DNA of 64,000 bases from contig CATOOF010000002.1 of the NCBI GenBank assembly GCA_951801825.1, positions 226,441-290,440 on the forward strand. Direction: 5' to 3'. The position numbers and the translations under genes were made by a program. Numbering within the stretch: the first letter of the stretch is position 1; each line of letters begins with the position of its first letter. The DNA comes from an uncultured Alphaproteobacteria bacterium. Lineage in GTDB: Bacteria > Pseudomonadota > Alphaproteobacteria > Rs-D84. This document shows positions 21,856-33,123 of the stretch, piece by piece. The notes beneath the pieces are model-generated. The model made no database searches and was not told the origin of the DNA. It saw only the letters and a list, made by a program, of their open reading frames with translations.

Positions 21856-22155
21856 GGTCGCGAAAGCGATGATGATTCTGAAGTCTATGCGGAATAAACG
21901 TTTTGGACCCGGGGGCGGTACCCGGCAGCTCCACCAATAAGCAATACGGGGCTGACATAGTTTCGACAGGCGCGGTAAAGGCAAAAGATTGAATCCGACA
22001 TGGCGTCGTTAAAAGCCGTTAAAAAATGAATGCGAACGATAACGTTCAGCTTGCAATGGCTGCCTAATATGGCGTTGAATACGGTTGGCGATTGTTAACC
22101 CTATTCGTTTTAGCTTTTGCGGGGCCCGCCGGGTGCCTGGCACCAGAAACCCGGT
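21856..22155 (+). ncRNA. ssrA: tmRNA, circularly permuted two-piece type; tag ANDNVQLAMAA
   Basis: Acceptor piece ends ...GGACCCGGGGGCGGTACCCGGCAGCTCCACCA (21936) upstream of coding piece GGGGCTGACATAGTTTCGACAGG (from 21948); tag frame GCG AAC GAT AAC GTT CAG CTT GCA ATG GCT GCC TAA (22032-22067). Outer ends approximate. Confidence 0.92.
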
Positions 22156-22183
22156 ATTTATAAATAATAAAAAGGCAAAAAAA

Positions 22184-22414
22184 ATGTTTGGAAAAGTAAA
22201 AAAAGTATTCTTTACGGGTGTGTTTGGAATCCTGTATGTTTCGTTTATTGCACAATTGGTTTATATTTTAGGCTGGGTCCCGGGCGTTGAGGGCAAACTG
22301 AGCTGGCTGGGGGCGTTGTCCTTGGAATGGCTGGTTCTGATTGCGGCACGATATCTGTCAAAGCGCAGCAGCACCGGTGCACAATATAACGGATATAATA
22401 ATCGCCGCCGTTAA
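22184..22414 (+). CDS. Small membrane protein
   Basis: MFGKVKKVFFTGVFGILYVSFIAQLVYILGW...; the ORF track N-terminal extension lies within tmRNA. Confidence 0.5.
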   Translation: MFGKVKKVFFTGVFGILYVSFIAQLVYILGWVPGVEGKLSWLGALSLEWLVLIAARYLSKRSSTGAQYNGYNNRRR

Positions 22415-22506: not shown

Positions 22507-24264
22507 ATGAAAGAATATATACTTCCATTTAGAGATTTGGTCGTACATCCCGGCCTGACGGTTCCTGTTTTTATTGACAATCCAATGTCGATAGCGTGTA
22601 TAGAGGCCGCAATGGAGGGCAGCCGCCGCTTGGTTTTGGCCGCCCAGCACAGCTGGAACTATCCGGCAGAGGTCAATGATATTTTTGATATCGGAACAAT
22701 AGGCGACATCGCCCAGGTTCTGCGCATGCCAGATGGTGCAATACATGCCATTATCAGAACAACTGACGTGGTGTCACTCCATGACATATCCGTAAACCGC
22801 GGCCTGTTTACCGCCGACACCCAGGTTATTTCATGCATGGATGATGCAGAATTCGAGCAGACAATCGCACTGCGTGACAGAATTGCAGAAAACCTGCAGG
22901 CGTTGGCGGCGGGGCGCAAATTTAAAATAGACAAACTGCGCAACATTGTTCAGAACTATCCCCTGCCCGCATTTGTAGATGCCGTGATTCAAACAGCCGA
23001 CATCGACACAGATGCCGCAGTTGCAGTTTTGCGTGCGGCCAGCTGGCGGGACAAACTGGTCTTGCTGTTGGAACAGGTAAACCTGATAGCGGAAACCGCA
23101 AAAATCGAAGATTCAATTAATCGACGCATTCACCAGCAGATGGAAGCCGGCCGCCGCGAGGCTATTTTGCAAGAAAAAATGCGCGCAATACAAAAAGAAA
23201 TGGGTGACGACGCCGAAGAAATGGACGCTGAAAACATGCGGCGGCGCATTGAAAAATCGCCCCTGCCGACAGAGGCGCGCGAAAAGGCGATGTCCGAATG
23301 GCGGCGCATGCGGTCACTGGCGCCGATGTCAAACGACGGCGCGCTGATAAAAACATATCTGGACGAACTGCTGGCAATGCCATGGGCAAAAACGCCCGCC
23401 TCAAAGATAGAACTGGGGGCCGCACGAAAAACGCTGGACGCCCGGCACTCTGGCATGAATGCAATAAAAGAGCGAATTTTGGAACATATCGCCGTGATGA
23501 AAAAAACCGGCAGCAACCGCGGCAGCATACTGTGTTTTGTCGGGGCGCCGGGCGTTGGCAAAACGTCGCTATGCAAATCGATTGCGGATGCACTGGGGCG
23601 AAAGTATCAGCGCATATCGCTGGGCGGCATTTCAGACGAGTCACACTTTCGCGGTCACCGCAAGACATATATAGGCTCTCAGCCGGGGCGCATTATGGAT
23701 GCACTGAAACGCTGTCACGCCAATAATCCTGTCATTGTTTTAGATGAAATAGATAAAATGGGACGCGACTGGCGCGGCGATCCAGAGGCGGCGTTACTTG
23801 AAATTATGGACCCTGAGCAAAACAAGACTTTCCGCGACCATTATTTAGAGGTGGATTTTGACCTGTCGAATGTTTTATTTATCGCCACAGCAAACAGCCT
23901 TAACCTGTCCAGCGCCCTGAAGGACCGTATGGAAATTATAGAGATTCCCGGATACACCGAAGAGGACAAGGTTTGTATCGCACGCGAACATTTGGTGCGA
24001 CGCGCCGCCGCCGATACGGGATGGGCAACAGAAAATATTATCATTAATGACGAAGCAATACGCCATATAATCCGAAACTATACGTCAGAACAAGGCGTAC
24101 GCCAGTTGCAGCGCGAACTGACCGCGATGCTGCGGCGGGCGCTATTGGAACACGACGGCGAAGATATTCTGACCGAGTTCACGCCGGAAAAAATTGACCA
24201 ATTACTGGCGGTACGAAAATTATCAGGTGTTTCAAAACGGATTGGTTTTGGCATGGGTGCATAA
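22507..24264 (+). CDS. Lon-family AAA+ protein lacking the C-terminal S16 peptidase domain
   Basis: Lon N-domain LPFRDLVVHPGLTVPVFIDN; Walker A GAPGVGKTSL; GGISDESHFRGHRKTYIGSQPGRIMDAL; VIVLDEIDKMG; stops at ...KLSGVSKRIGFGMGA. Confidence 0.92.
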   Translation: MKEYILPFRDLVVHPGLTVPVFIDNPMSIACIEAAMEGSRRLVLAAQHSWNYPAEVNDIFDIGTIGDIAQVLRMPDGAIHAIIRTTDVVSLHDISVNRGLFTADTQVISCMDDAEFEQTIALRDRIAENLQALAAGRKFKIDKLRNIVQNYPLPAFVDAVIQTADIDTDAAVAVLRAASWRDKLVLLLEQVNLIAETAKIEDSINRRIHQQMEAGRREAILQEKMRAIQKEMGDDAEEMDAENMRRRIEKSPLPTEAREKAMSEWRRMRSLAPMSNDGALIKTYLDELLAMPWAKTPASKIELGAARKTLDARHSGMNAIKERILEHIAVMKKTGSNRGSILCFVGAPGVGKTSLCKSIADALGRKYQRISLGGISDESHFRGHRKTYIGSQPGRIMDALKRCHANNPVIVLDEIDKMGRDWRGDPEAALLEIMDPEQNKTFRDHYLEVDFDLSNVLFIATANSLNLSSALKDRMEIIEIPGYTEEDKVCIAREHLVRRAAADTGWATENIIINDEAIRHIIRNYTSEQGVRQLQRELTAMLRRALLEHDGEDILTEFTPEKIDQLLAVRKLSGVSKRIGFGMGA

Positions 24265-24285: not shown

Positions 24286-24561
24286 ATGAATCTTTCTGAA
24301 AAATACAAGCTGTTCAAGGCAATCATACTGGCTGATGACGTAAAGTTCCAGACGCCCGGCATTTTTAATGAAACATACAGGGCAATAACCAAAGACTATG
24401 TAATCGAATCCGAGATACTATTGCCACATTTTGACGGCGAAAAATCGCAGTATACAATAAACGCCATTAACAGACACAAGCATTTATCATACACGTTAAA
24501 TGGCCGCATCGCACAATTAGCAACTTTTATAATGAACAAAAAACACGCCAAGACAAAATGA
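24286..24561 (+). CDS. Hypothetical small protein between Lon-like and tsaB
   Basis: Upstream AAAGGA; 4-nt overlap with tsaB. Confidence 0.6.
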   Translation: MNLSEKYKLFKAIILADDVKFQTPGIFNETYRAITKDYVIESEILLPHFDGEKSQYTINAINRHKHLSYTLNGRIAQLATFIMNKKHAKTK

Positions 24562-25109
24562 TTCTGCTTATCAACACTTCGGGCGGGGGGCTGGAATTTG
24601 CCCTGGGGGCCGCACACAAACAAATAGCTGTGGAAAAACAGTCTGTTGCGCTAGCGCCGGAATGCGAAAAATTTATGACCGAGTGCGGGGTATCATGGCG
24701 CGAATTAACGGCAATCGGCGTAGTGGTGGGCCCGGGCAGTTTTACCGGCGTACGCCTGGGCATTGCATACGCAAAGGGCCTGGGGCTGGGGTTGAATATT
24801 CCGGTGGTCGGGATAAGCGCGTTTGAATTATATCTGGCGGCGACGCCGGACGCGTTTGTCGCAATAGAATCCGGACGTGGCGACTTTTTTGTCGCATCAG
24901 AAAAAACAGCCCCTCAAACAATGACAATTGACGAGGTGGAAACGCGCCAGATGGAATGCCCGCGAACCGTCGGACATTTACCGTTTAACCTGGGGCTGGG
25001 GGATGGCATTGTCCGCAAAAAGCTGGCAGATGGCGACACCACGCCCGCCGTGCCGATGTATCTGCGCCCCAGCTATGCCGAAGAGAATCACAAATGCTGC
25101 AACAACTAG
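24558..25109 (+). CDS. tsaB: tRNA t6A biosynthesis protein TsaB
   Basis: ILLINTSGGGLEFAL...GVVVGPGSFTGVRLGIAYAKGLGLGLNIPVVGISAFE. Confidence 0.92.
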   Translation: MILLINTSGGGLEFALGAAHKQIAVEKQSVALAPECEKFMTECGVSWRELTAIGVVVGPGSFTGVRLGIAYAKGLGLGLNIPVVGISAFELYLAATPDAFVAIESGRGDFFVASEKTAPQTMTIDEVETRQMECPRTVGHLPFNLGLGDGIVRKKLADGDTTPAVPMYLRPSYAEENHKCCNN

Positions 25110-27744: not shown

Positions 27745-30700
27745 ATGGAAAAAAAGCGCAGTTTCCTTGGGTTTTTGGCATCTTTATTCGTTGTCTTTTT
27801 TATGGCAAATGCTTTTGCCGCGGGGTATACATGCAACGATAAAAAGCAATACACGTCGTGTAATACTAATTATTATCTGAACAAATCCGGCGTTGGAAAT
27901 GCCTGTCTTTTGTGTTCCAGTGCATCTAATACGACATCTACCGAAACCAAAACGCGTACATGTACGGATGCTGAAAAAACAGCCCTGCATGCAACCGCAT
28001 GCAGCACGACATCATGTCAAAAAAGATGTAATGGTAACTTTACAGCAGGTACCGGTGGCACTACGGTTGGAACGGGCACATGTTCTGGATGCAGTAGCTA
28101 TGCCGATTGTACACCCCGGGACCCGGTGGCAACAGCATGTATAACCGAATATTTTTTCAATGACTCCCAAGATGTTTGCGATCCTTGCTCTGGTCAGCGT
28201 AATTATGATGAATTAGGCAGAACAACTATTACCGGCGGGACAAGAATCCAGACATGTACCGGTTATCATACGGGCGGCGCCGGCGGCACCAGCGGCAGTG
28301 AGGCCTGTACCGGGTGTTCGGCATCCACTTATTCCTGCTCTTGTAATTCTGGCTATCATGTTGTGGGCAGCGGCTCTTCGTGTACATGCGCGCCAAATAC
28401 CATAGACCTTACCTGTAACCCAGGATTCTATGTCAAAAAAGGCACAACAACCTGTTCAGCCGAATGCCCGGTCAATAAATGGTGCGCCGGCGGGAAACAG
28501 ACCATCAACTCTTCCGGGGCAACCGCCGACACCGGAATTAGCGGTAGCTGTCCGTCTGGATTCTCGGCACCTGTAAAGAGTACTTCGTACACGGCATGTT
28601 TTACATCATGTCTCCAGACATGTTCCGGTGAAGCTCCATGTACATATGCCAATGCTAAATGTCTTTATGATACAAGCTATGAATATACCGGAATCAGGAA
28701 ATGTCAAAACGCGGCCTGTACCACAACAACCAGCTGTAGCGCCAGTGGAACATGTCCTGTCAGTAGCTTTGTATGTAACGCCTGCTATAAAAAAAATGCC
28801 GGGGGAACGGGATGTATTGCTGAAACATATACCCTTACATATCAGCCGGGTGGCGGATCTGGTTCGGTACAATCACAGCTTATTCAGTTTCAATCCACAT
28901 TTACAACCAAACCGAGCAACACGTTTACACGGGGTGGGTATAACTTCAGCAGCTGGGGTGGTAGCTATCCAAATGCCAACAGTACATATACATATACCAA
29001 ATGCGGAAATACAACACTGACGGCACAGTGGACAGCATGCAATGCCAGCAATACCGCGGGGGCGTGCAACTGTTCATCCACCCAACACCCAACCGGCAGC
29101 GGCTGTGCAAACTGTAGCGTATCATGCAGCAGCGTAAGCGGATTTACGCTGGGTACGTACAATGTATGCAACTCTCAAACCGACAGCATATGTTACCGCA
29201 ACTGTACAACAGCCGACGTAGCGGGCTCTGCCACGGTAAGCGGAACAGTGACTAAGGGCGGAACCAAGACATGCAAGGCCGATACATGTGATGCAAATCA
29301 CTGTAAAACAACGGTCGGAACATGTATTACAAAGCCCGCAAACGGAACATGTAATACCGGCGGGGGCGATCCGATTACATGTAACGCCGGCTATCACCTT
29401 AACACGGCAAAGACGGACTGTCTGCCGAATACATACAATGTTACCTATTCCTGTGGCGCCGGAACAGGCACGGCCCCAACGGCAAACACGGCAACATACG
29501 ACGCATCTTATACGCCAAAGTCCAATACATGCTCGCGCGCCAACTATGCCTTTAGCGGCTGGCTGGTATCGGGAACCAGTGATACAAAGCAAGGCAACTT
29601 TATATGGAAATATACAGAAAACAAAACCTTTACGGCACAATGGGTTCCGACAAAGTGTCCTGCTAATCAGTATCTGGAAAATGCACAATGTAAAACATGC
29701 CCAACATCTCATCCAAAATCTGTTGAGGGCAACAATAACAGCATAAACGACTGTTACAAGGATTGTAATGCCAGCTGTACATCCCCGTCGTCTTGCCCGG
29801 CGAACTCCAGCGGCTGTACATTTGATACGACGGTAAAAAAGCCCGGAACACAGAAATATAATTCGTCTTCGTGCGTAATAAATACCGGCGTAAACAGTGC
29901 ATGTCCGGTAAAAACGCTGGCGTGTAATCGTAACTATTATACGAACGATCAGGTTTGCTCTGCGTGTACCAGCCTTGGTAACGGACAATGGAATACGTCG
30001 TTGTCATCAAACAACAGCGGACCAGAAGGCTGTTATGCAACATGCAAAAAACCGTGTACACCGATACAATGTCCGGCACACTCTACCTGTACACATGGCA
30101 ACGAAGAAAAAATCGGCGGAATATACTACCCCAGCTCTGAGTGTAACGTGGAAAACTTTAGTTGCTCTGTATCAATAACACCGGATCCCGGATACGAGGG
30201 CTGTGATGATGGCGTGTGCGACCCGATTGTTGCAGAAATAACCCTGAATCACGAAGGCGGAACCAGCACCGTCAGCAAAATATACCAAAAATACAGTGTT
30301 GGATATTCGCTGACCAACTTTGGTGCAACGGTTACCAAAATACCTGTTCCGACACGTGCCACATGGGGCTTTAACGGGTACTTTACAGCGGCCACAGGCG
30401 GCGAAAAGATTGTGGACGCCAATGGTAATATTATTGCTGCAAATACAAAGTTTTTACAGAAACAGAACAACACAATATACGCCCAGTGGACACGTCTGAC
30501 ACGTAATTGCGTCGTCGGAAAGGCATATGACGGAACAAACGACGTTAACTGTCCGGCAGGCAAATATTGCCCTGGAACAGGAACGGCGGTAATCGGAACC
30601 GCCGGATGTGCAACACAATGTCCGGCCGATGCGGCGGGTGGAACGGTTACATCCGACGTAAACTCTTCGGTTGTCACGGCATGCCGTACGGTGCGCTCTA

Positions 30701-33123
30701 ACCAGGTGTTGGATGATCAAACCGGCCGCGGCGACCAGACCTGTGGGTATAACACATCAAAATCCGATTACTCTGCCAGCTGTACAATTAAAGTTACGGC
30801 ATGTAATGCAGGATATTATCGTCAGGCTGAAAATTCAACAACTTGCTCTTCGACAGAGATTGGCGCATACAGCCCAGCAAACGATATTAAAAAGTATATG
30901 TGTAGCGCACTTAGCGGTGCCACAGCCGATGTAACAACAGCGGCCAAGAATTCTGGCGCGGCAACATTGTGCTATAATCCGTGCGGCAATGTTCCAATTG
31001 CCAATGGAACGCGCGTGCCTGTTAACACCAAAGAGTTCTATAACGGAACAAAAATACCGGCATGTACATATACAACATCATGTAGCGACGGATACAAGCC
31101 GGAAGGCACAACGTGTGTACCCAATGTATATAAAATTACATTGAACCATAACAACGGAACGCCAAACAGCACTATTTATCTAAAGTTTGCCACAGGCTGG
31201 TATTCCAACGAGGCGGCGACCAATCAGATTACATCTGTAACCGTGCCGTCCAAGGGTGACGGAATGGCATTCTCGGGCTATGTATCGTCTAATAATGACG
31301 TTATAATCAGTGCAAACGGTACGCTGACCACGAACTATAACGTGTTCAAGTCAAATGCGACCATTACGGCTGAATGGGGCGCACGCACACCAATCACATG
31401 TGCGGCCGGTACATATTACACTGGTTCGGGCACATCATGTACGGGATGTACCGCAGGAAACTATTGCCCTGGTGTCGAAACATTTGAAGGCGTGGGCAGT
31501 CCGCGTGGCATCAATACGTGCGCATCACTGGGCGGAACATATGTACATGCCGACGGGGCGCCGGCCACGGTCGTCACATCAAAGGCAAACGCCAAGGCAT
31601 CCACAGACTGTTATGCGACAAATGTTGCGTATACATCTGCATCAAACAAAGCGACCGGCAGCCAGACATGCTATTTCAACCCGGCAACAACAAAATACCA
31701 GGACGGCAAGTGTGAGGCAATCCAGGTGCTTAGCTGTGGTGGTGGTTATTACGCAAACATCGTATTAAATCGCGATGACTGTATTGAGGTCGGATACGGA
31801 TTCTATAGCCCGGCCCCAACCCCCAGTCATTTGGCGGAAAGTTTGGAGAGAACCGCCTGCGAGGAAGGTGCAACAACCAGCACGCCAACCAGTGTATCGG
31901 CCGACGCATGCTTTGTCTGCCCGGCAGGTATGGTATGCGATCCGATAACCGGCGAAGAACCTAAAACATGCGCAGAGCTGACCAATGGCACGCATCCGAA
32001 TTCAGATACCGGAAACACGGATGTTGCAGGATGCTGGCGTGATTGTGCGGTCGCGACAAATGCCGCCACAATGAAAGGACATGATTACTACGGATTGCCG
32101 TCAACTTGTGAAATCGACAACTGTAAGGCCGGATTCACGTACAATGCGACGACAAGAACATGTGACCTGTGTCCAGAAGGGTCGTTCTGTGGTGGCGGCG
32201 AAGGCAGTGGCGACTGTCCTGAGGGTCAAAACTGTGATGCGCCTAAATCGTGCTCTGACCTGGGCGATGGCAGTTGGGAATATTCCGACATTGGCGCAAC
32301 AGGTCCAAAAAGTTGCTATAAAAAGTGCGAACAATATAATCTGGATGGCGGAATTGCCGTACCGGTGGCCGATCGTGCGTACTATGCAAACCAGTGCGAG
32401 TTCAAGGGCTTTGACATTGATAACACCCCCTGTGATATTGAGGACGGCGTATGTGTGACAACATCATGTAAACCATCTTTTGAAATGGTAAACGGCAAAT
32501 GTGTTGCATGTAACCGCGATCACGCACTGAGCTATAAAAACACAGGCAACTGTATGGTGGCAACATGCGAGCCGGGCTGGCATCCATACGGCCAGAGCTG
32601 TGAAGGCGACATTACCGAGTGCTCTGCCCCGAATGCATTACGCGCTGAAAAGCAGTGGGATTATAAAAAGAATGCATACGGCATCTGTCTGATAAAGCAG
32701 TGCGAAGATGGATTCCACATATCGTCCAACGCCTGTGTAAGCGACATCCAGGACTGCACGGTTGAACACGGAACGGGCGAAAAGACATGGAATCATACAA
32801 CGAACACATGGGGCGAATGTGTAGCAACATACTGTGACCCGGGATGGACGAATGATCCGTACGAAACAAACGAGCCAACCAAGCAATGCGGGCACTGTAA
32901 GAACAAGTTCGGTATAAAGGGCGAACTGGCCGTCAGTGGTTATAGTCGCGGATGCACAATATCGGCATGCATGTACCAGGGCGAACTTTATAACCTGGAA
33001 AACAACGAGTGCAACCCGATATGCGACGTAAACGGCTATGAGGATGAAACGGGTACGATGAAATGGAACCCGGCAACCAAAAAGTGCGAACGCACATGTA
33101 AAGAAGGCTATGTAATGTGGTAA
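27745..33123 (+). CDS. Giant secreted cysteine-rich protein with InlB-type B-repeats, 1792 aa
   Basis: Signal MEKKRSFLGFLASLFVVFFMANAFAAGYTC; repeated CxxC/GxYC modules; four segments ending ...TAQW/YAQW/AEW like InlB B-repeats. Confidence 0.88.
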   Translation: MEKKRSFLGFLASLFVVFFMANAFAAGYTCNDKKQYTSCNTNYYLNKSGVGNACLLCSSASNTTSTETKTRTCTDAEKTALHATACSTTSCQKRCNGNFTAGTGGTTVGTGTCSGCSSYADCTPRDPVATACITEYFFNDSQDVCDPCSGQRNYDELGRTTITGGTRIQTCTGYHTGGAGGTSGSEACTGCSASTYSCSCNSGYHVVGSGSSCTCAPNTIDLTCNPGFYVKKGTTTCSAECPVNKWCAGGKQTINSSGATADTGISGSCPSGFSAPVKSTSYTACFTSCLQTCSGEAPCTYANAKCLYDTSYEYTGIRKCQNAACTTTTSCSASGTCPVSSFVCNACYKKNAGGTGCIAETYTLTYQPGGGSGSVQSQLIQFQSTFTTKPSNTFTRGGYNFSSWGGSYPNANSTYTYTKCGNTTLTAQWTACNASNTAGACNCSSTQHPTGSGCANCSVSCSSVSGFTLGTYNVCNSQTDSICYRNCTTADVAGSATVSGTVTKGGTKTCKADTCDANHCKTTVGTCITKPANGTCNTGGGDPITCNAGYHLNTAKTDCLPNTYNVTYSCGAGTGTAPTANTATYDASYTPKSNTCSRANYAFSGWLVSGTSDTKQGNFIWKYTENKTFTAQWVPTKCPANQYLENAQCKTCPTSHPKSVEGNNNSINDCYKDCNASCTSPSSCPANSSGCTFDTTVKKPGTQKYNSSSCVINTGVNSACPVKTLACNRNYYTNDQVCSACTSLGNGQWNTSLSSNNSGPEGCYATCKKPCTPIQCPAHSTCTHGNEEKIGGIYYPSSECNVENFSCSVSITPDPGYEGCDDGVCDPIVAEITLNHEGGTSTVSKIYQKYSVGYSLTNFGATVTKIPVPTRATWGFNGYFTAATGGEKIVDANGNIIAANTKFLQKQNNTIYAQWTRLTRNCVVGKAYDGTNDVNCPAGKYCPGTGTAVIGTAGCATQCPADAAGGTVTSDVNSSVVTACRTVRSNQVLDDQTGRGDQTCGYNTSKSDYSASCTIKVTACNAGYYRQAENSTTCSSTEIGAYSPANDIKKYMCSALSGATADVTTAAKNSGAATLCYNPCGNVPIANGTRVPVNTKEFYNGTKIPACTYTTSCSDGYKPEGTTCVPNVYKITLNHNNGTPNSTIYLKFATGWYSNEAATNQITSVTVPSKGDGMAFSGYVSSNNDVIISANGTLTTNYNVFKSNATITAEWGARTPITCAAGTYYTGSGTSCTGCTAGNYCPGVETFEGVGSPRGINTCASLGGTYVHADGAPATVVTSKANAKASTDCYATNVAYTSASNKATGSQTCYFNPATTKYQDGKCEAIQVLSCGGGYYANIVLNRDDCIEVGYGFYSPAPTPSHLAESLERTACEEGATTSTPTSVSADACFVCPAGMVCDPITGEEPKTCAELTNGTHPNSDTGNTDVAGCWRDCAVATNAATMKGHDYYGLPSTCEIDNCKAGFTYNATTRTCDLCPEGSFCGGGEGSGDCPEGQNCDAPKSCSDLGDGSWEYSDIGATGPKSCYKKCEQYNLDGGIAVPVADRAYYANQCEFKGFDIDNTPCDIEDGVCVTTSCKPSFEMVNGKCVACNRDHALSYKNTGNCMVATCEPGWHPYGQSCEGDITECSAPNALRAEKQWDYKKNAYGICLIKQCEDGFHISSNACVSDIQDCTVEHGTGEKTWNHTTNTWGECVATYCDPGWTNDPYETNEPTKQCGHCKNKFGIKGELAVSGYSRGCTISACMYQGELYNLENNECNPICDVNGYEDETGTMKWNPATKKCERTCKEGYVMW

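Follow-up and report, generated by a model that had tools for sequence, protein, structure and literature searches.

The window analysed here, a 64,000-nt stretch of alphaproteobacterial DNA, contains a single-copy Lon-type gene, lon-delta-S16, whose 585-aa product retains an intact N-domain, AAA+ module and lid and has no S16 protease domain. The domain loss, its fixation among relatives, the intact motor motifs, an invariant IGF tripeptide in the C-terminal tail and a ClpP whose docking pocket is largely conserved are direct observations. We regard it as probable that lon-delta-S16 is a Lon-type unfoldase that works with ClpP, a separate peptidase, as its ATPase partner. With only slightly less assurance, we propose a natural Lon:ClpP protease that arose through a lineage-wide conversion from one chain to two components, in which the first S16 strand was remade into an IGF tail and ClpP is served by ClpX and Lon instead of ClpX and ClpA. 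These results suggest that in Candidatus Enterousia and its kin, gut bacteria with tiny genomes, Lon changed from a one-piece into a two-piece machine.

A Lon motor without its protease domain

Pfam searches identified the LonA-type N-domain (PF02190, 78 bits against a cut-off of 28.7), the AAA+ large domain (PF00004) and the lid (PF22667), and found no Lon_C/S16 domain with the Ser-Lys dyad in lon-delta-S16 (Table 1). The NCBIfam Lon model TIGR00763 is covered at positions 2-563 of 795 only, scoring 525 bits, below the cut-off of 608. Across the truncated clade (30 orthologues), Walker A and B, the Tyr-Ile-Gly pore loop, sensor 1, the Arg finger and sensor 2 are retained; the single orthologue deviating in Walker A reads GSPGVGKTS. 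The best PDB match by sequence is E. coli Lon (6u5z, E=7.9e-129) and the best fold match is Thermus Lon (7p6u). In the AlphaFold2 model (mean pLDDT 74.9, pTM 0.45), the lid ends in a helix spanning residues 560-574, and residues 572-585 are disordered. The ClpX model TIGR00382 is absent among the matches listed for the protein, and the ClpA model TIGR02639 reaches 39.9 bits against a cut-off of 993. Such matches place lon-delta-S16 in the Lon lineage and, by descent, outside ClpX and ClpA.

Table 1 Features of lon-delta-S16 and its downstream neighbours (window coordinates).
Feature	Position	Strand	Evidence
lon-delta-S16 (N-domain, helical region, AAA+ module and lid; no protease domain)	22507..24264	+	ORF, Pfam/NCBIfam, orthologues
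LON_substr_bdg (N) domain, residues 5-191	22519..23079	+	PF02190 E=1.1e-21
AAA+ large domain, residues 342-478	23530..23940	+	PF00004 E=8.6e-23; motifs kept clade-wide
Walker A GAPGVGKTS, residues 346-354	23542..23568	+	same in 29/30 truncated orthologues
Pore loop RGHRKTYIGSQPG, residues 382-394, substrate-gripping Tyr-Ile-Gly	23650..23688	+	kept as in full-length Lons
Walker B IVLDEIDKM, residues 410-418	23734..23760	+	conserved
Lon AAA+ lid domain (Lon_lid), residues 504-548	24016..24150	+	PF22667 E=5.6e-13
Flexible C-terminal tail, residues 572-585, replacing the S16 domain	24220..24261	+	pLDDT <50
IGF tripeptide, residues 579-581, proposed ClpP-docking motif	24241..24249	+	95/95 distinct complete truncated ORFs
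91-aa ORF between lon and tsaB	24286..24561	+	similar sequence in near relatives only
tsaB, downstream neighbour (context only)	24558..25109	+	TIGR03725 E=8e-26; synteny

The genome to which the window belongs amounts to 897 kb in 4 contigs (0.9 Mb) and is 95.7% complete. It gives one Lon match in total: no second lon was found elsewhere in it, nor Lon_C/S16, split S16 included, at E<=1, the same search being positive in 14/14 control genomes, and a split S16 domain or second lon elsewhere was thus rejected. The 91-aa ORF downstream, which has no Pfam or NCBIfam match, was rejected as a substitute protease; since it is resembled in near relatives only, it is no part of the lon-delta-S16 system. 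In many other relatives tsaB starts 6-30 nt after lon. Another small ORF (up to 109 aa; 22085-22414, plus strand; no Pfam match) lies about 96 nt upstream of lon, and a similar ORF occupies the same place in most relatives having the region. The window also encodes a cysteine-rich predicted secreted protein of 1792 aa (27745-33123, plus strand), and in the same genome the surroundings of clpP include smaller Cys-rich ORFs with signal-like starts.

Distribution of the truncated form

In the GTDB collection, the near relatives are all uncultured Alphaproteobacteria, of which two bear the name Candidatus Enterousia. This lineage belongs to the order Rs-D84 and has reduced genomes of about 1 Mb or less (PMC12306168); the main text of that paper makes no mention of Lon or Clp. 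A Lon match is present in 13 of the 14 genera of the family and in 109 of its 114 genomes. The protein is about 585 aa long or a fragment in all except one genus, g4, which keeps a full-length Lon (frame of 769-779 aa), and Lon_C accordingly occurs in 3 of the 109 genomes, all of g4. Other families of the order have full-length Lons, mostly of 780-930 aa, besides fragmentary frames. In the rest of the class, nearly all Lons among the matches listed of about 190 genomes are about 780-860 aa long; no truncated Lon was evident among them, and two frames had lengths of 638 and 694 aa. The identity of lon-delta-S16 to the full-length Lons of the class is about 40%.

A Lon tree was built on the part from the N-domain to the lid, with 30 truncated forms included. 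All 30 fall into one clade (100/99) with g4 as its sister, so that one loss suffices; the tree indicates that S16 was lost once, after g4 had split off within the family. One g4 genome (G017, 0.7 Mb, 92% complete) gave no Lon, ClpP or ClpX match. A very divergent full-length Lon, on an end branch of 3.5 changes per site, was seen in family f5 of the same order (L197, genome G117).

The original prediction, made from this stretch of DNA alone, had described a Lon homologue that stops before S16, with the N-domain and full AAA+ module intact and followed by a small ORF and then tsaB, and each of these points is borne out. Its view that the truncation is genuine and no simple frameshift also holds, since nearly all sampled genomes of the family encode the ~585-aa protein. 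Two of the checks that it proposed gave no second full-length lon and a truncation fixed in relatives, and a full-length Lon at this locus in relatives, which it had named together with reads showing an assembly deletion as what would overturn it, was not found in the same genus.

The IGF tail and ClpP

The C-terminus of lon-delta-S16 reads SKRIGFGMGA. IGF lies near the C-terminus in 95/95 distinct complete truncated ORFs, a count that took in every such ORF and did not presuppose the motif. The sole exception, L066, has an in-frame stop (at about 6597) in an otherwise intact truncated lon, and its read-through ends in KKIGFGVRL. When 54 diverse sequences are aligned, I579, G580 and F581 alone are invariant past F558; the linker residues 572-576 have entropies of 1.9-2.5 bits, and the residues after IGF also vary. 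The codons of the tripeptide vary silently (ATT/ATC/ATA, GGN, TTT/TTC), and its spacing from the last lid helix is near-constant, with a Leu pair 12-13 residues ahead in most sequences. Among about 815 distinct ORFs of at least 200 aa in the retrieved DNA, only Lons have IGF within the last 14 residues. With chance excluded as the origin of this conservation, a functional tripeptide is the simplest reading of the alignment.

Clp ATPases dock on ClpP via flexible loops, whose tripeptide (L/I/V)-G-(F/L) binds the H-pocket, entering hydrophobic pockets between the ClpP subunits (PMC9035409, PMC8745299). IGF is a tripeptide of this kind and therefore indicates ClpP as the partner protease; it sits on a tail that is disordered in the model, at the C-terminus and not on a loop. 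ClpX of the same genome carries ...RGGIGFGATV, that is, the same IGFG as the Lon tail, and the ClpX of two species checked from g4, the genus with full-length Lon, has LGFG. The original prediction of an "unfoldase/chaperone or regulator of another protease" thus had the right direction and lacked the specificity that the invariant IGF provides; it quoted the tail correctly, took it as a mere ending and overlooked the motif within it.

The linker of full-length relatives leads into the first S16 strand, [VI]-G-x-V-x-G-L-A-W, and G580 of IGF aligns with the [VI]-G-x of this strand (alignment A2). Because [VI]-G-x is already there in full-length Lon, IGF appears to be partly inherited from the S16 start and not wholly newly made, which counts against the ClpP reading. 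In 12 full-length Lons the third position is usually V, I or T and seldom F; in the truncated forms it is always F. A truncation just past [VI]-G-x would leave a weak Clp-type tripeptide, with IGF becoming fixed later.

ClpP was found in the window's own genome and in 106 of the 109 family genomes, and its catalytic Ser and His are invariant across relatives. In its pocket, L23, L48, Y62, I90 and L114 are conserved and positions 60 and 112 are variable: the ClpP of this genome has Ser at both sites equivalent to E. coli Tyr60 and Phe112, which counts against docking, although most relatives retain Phe112. The pocket numbering follows what we take to be the E. coli ClpP reference sequence, whose catalytic residues line up. 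No ClpA above the cut-off was found in 61 genomes and no ClpS in 31 genomes; a search of 61 genomes for HslV returned no clear homologue and one weak partial match, and HslV or the proteasome was rejected as Lon partner. ClpX and lon-delta-S16 are therefore the two candidate motors for ClpP.

About 230 kb separates lon from clpP in the window's genome. In one relative (G010, genus g11; L187, G010:C60, 1632-4273), clpP follows the truncated lon on the same strand at a distance of 264 nt, and clpX comes another 2.2 kb on. This adjacency speaks for the Lon:ClpP reading; its restriction to one fragmented genome, with lon and clpP separate elsewhere, speaks against it. Two genomes could be taken for true cases of ClpP loss: G035 is without clpP, clpX and a ClpB-like gene together, and G034 is without clpP and clpX, its ClpB-like gene lying on a 7.2-kb contig. 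Since clpP, clpX and the ClpB-like gene adjoin one another in several relatives, an assembly gap is likely and we rejected both as counter-examples. Among the family genomes, none is demonstrably without ClpP yet keeps the IGF tail.

The ClpB-like protein of the window's genome (L186:2083-4140, minus strand, C1) has 685 aa, starts at the first AAA+ domain without an N-domain, and lacks an [LIV]G[FL] loop in the stretch from sensor 1 to FRPEFINR; in several relatives this protein has 860 aa. Second, divergent ClpP-like proteins (frames of about 220-300 aa, weak PF00574; for example G063:C5:141757-142167) occur patchily in relatives and are absent from this genome.

In the proposed Lon:ClpP protease, the N-domain would select substrates, which the AAA+ ring would unfold and thread. 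The former place of the S16 ring, after the lid, is taken by a flexible tail of about a dozen residues, whose IGF would plug into the hydrophobic pockets of the ClpP ring as the ClpX IGF loops do. Lon:ClpP would operate alongside ClpXP in cells that yielded no ClpA, ClpS or clear HslV. We infer that lon-delta-S16 may form a hexamer, dock on ClpP and pass substrates to it. Known Lons form hexamers through the S16 domain (PMC9569914), so its loss may weaken ring formation, and this counts against the Lon:ClpP reading. No precedent was found for a C-terminal, as opposed to loop-borne, IGF, and the titles and abstracts of the open-access papers searched yielded no description of a Lon without protease domain or of a Lon-ClpP partnership.

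Alternative explanations and relation to known systems

It is unlikely that lon-delta-S16 acts as a stand-alone Lon chaperone or unfoldase (ClpB- or ClpX-like remodelling) with no protease partner and with a structural IGF tail, for example one that packs against the lid where the lost domain had been. The intact motor motifs would suit such a role, and the IG of IGF, matching the [VI]-G that opens S16, could be a retained packing element. However, the tail is unpacked in the AlphaFold2 model, the third residue is always F after truncation, the linker between lid and tail drifts freely whereas IGF is fixed, and the motif is identical to that of ClpX in the same cell. This identity would also let the protein compete for the same pockets as a regulator that docks on ClpP via IGF and blocks or competes with ClpX, feeding no substrate; we give this little credence, as a mere plug would not need a conserved pore loop, Walker motifs and N-domain.

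Partnership with some other unrecognised peptidase, such as a split S16 domain, HslV or a novel enzyme, is very improbable: weak second ClpP-like matches in some genomes speak for it, but they are patchy and missing here, S16 is confined to g4 among the 109 genomes and the 61 genomes searched have no clear HslV or proteasome. A decaying Lon pseudogene, or an assembly or frameshift artefact, can practically be dismissed. Genome reduction in this lineage (PMC12306168) and the in-frame stop in L066 would fit decay, but the frames of 95 distinct orthologues are intact with nearly the same end point in all, the AAA+ module has a mean entropy of 0.51 bits in the 54-sequence alignment, and the truncated forms make up a single clade with a single loss. 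Family-wide intact orthologues, S16 confined to g4 and the Lon tree together refute a frameshift, an assembly gap or a pseudogene.

If the Lon:ClpP reading is true, it represents a natural partner swap between two protease families that has become fixed in most of a bacterial family, while its sister genus g4 still shows the ancestral full-length state. Lon is described with motor and protease in one chain and ClpP as served by Clp ATPases; the reading would make testable how modular AAA+ proteases gain or lose a peptidase. A bare C-terminal IGF tail could then suffice to dock on ClpP, a point of interest for designing unfoldase-ClpP systems and for the ClpP-IGF pocket as a target of drugs.

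Proteasomal ATPases (through their HbYX tail) and HslU (into HslV) plug a short C-terminal tail per ATPase subunit into the peptidase ring. The docking proposed for lon-delta-S16 resembles this in outline, but with another motif, another peptidase and a tail that is not homologous. Like ClpX and ClpA in ClpXP and ClpAP, lon-delta-S16 would be a separate AAA+ ring with an (L/I/V)-G-(F/L) tripeptide and is a proposed feeder of ClpP; unlike them, it is of Lon and not Clp/Hsp100 lineage, has a Lon N-domain for substrate choice, and carries the tripeptide at its C-terminus, whereas theirs is borne on a loop inside the large AAA+ domain. With the ClpB disaggregase it would share the state of a protease-less ring unfoldase, although ClpB is without the ClpP motif. 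Lons are described as single chains with ATPase and protease domains together (PMC9569914). Like LonA (endopeptidase La, MEROPS S16; E. coli 6u5z, Thermus 7p6u), lon-delta-S16 has the N-domain, helical region, AAA+ module and lid; unlike LonA, it has a C-terminal IGF tail in place of S16 and the Ser-Lys dyad.
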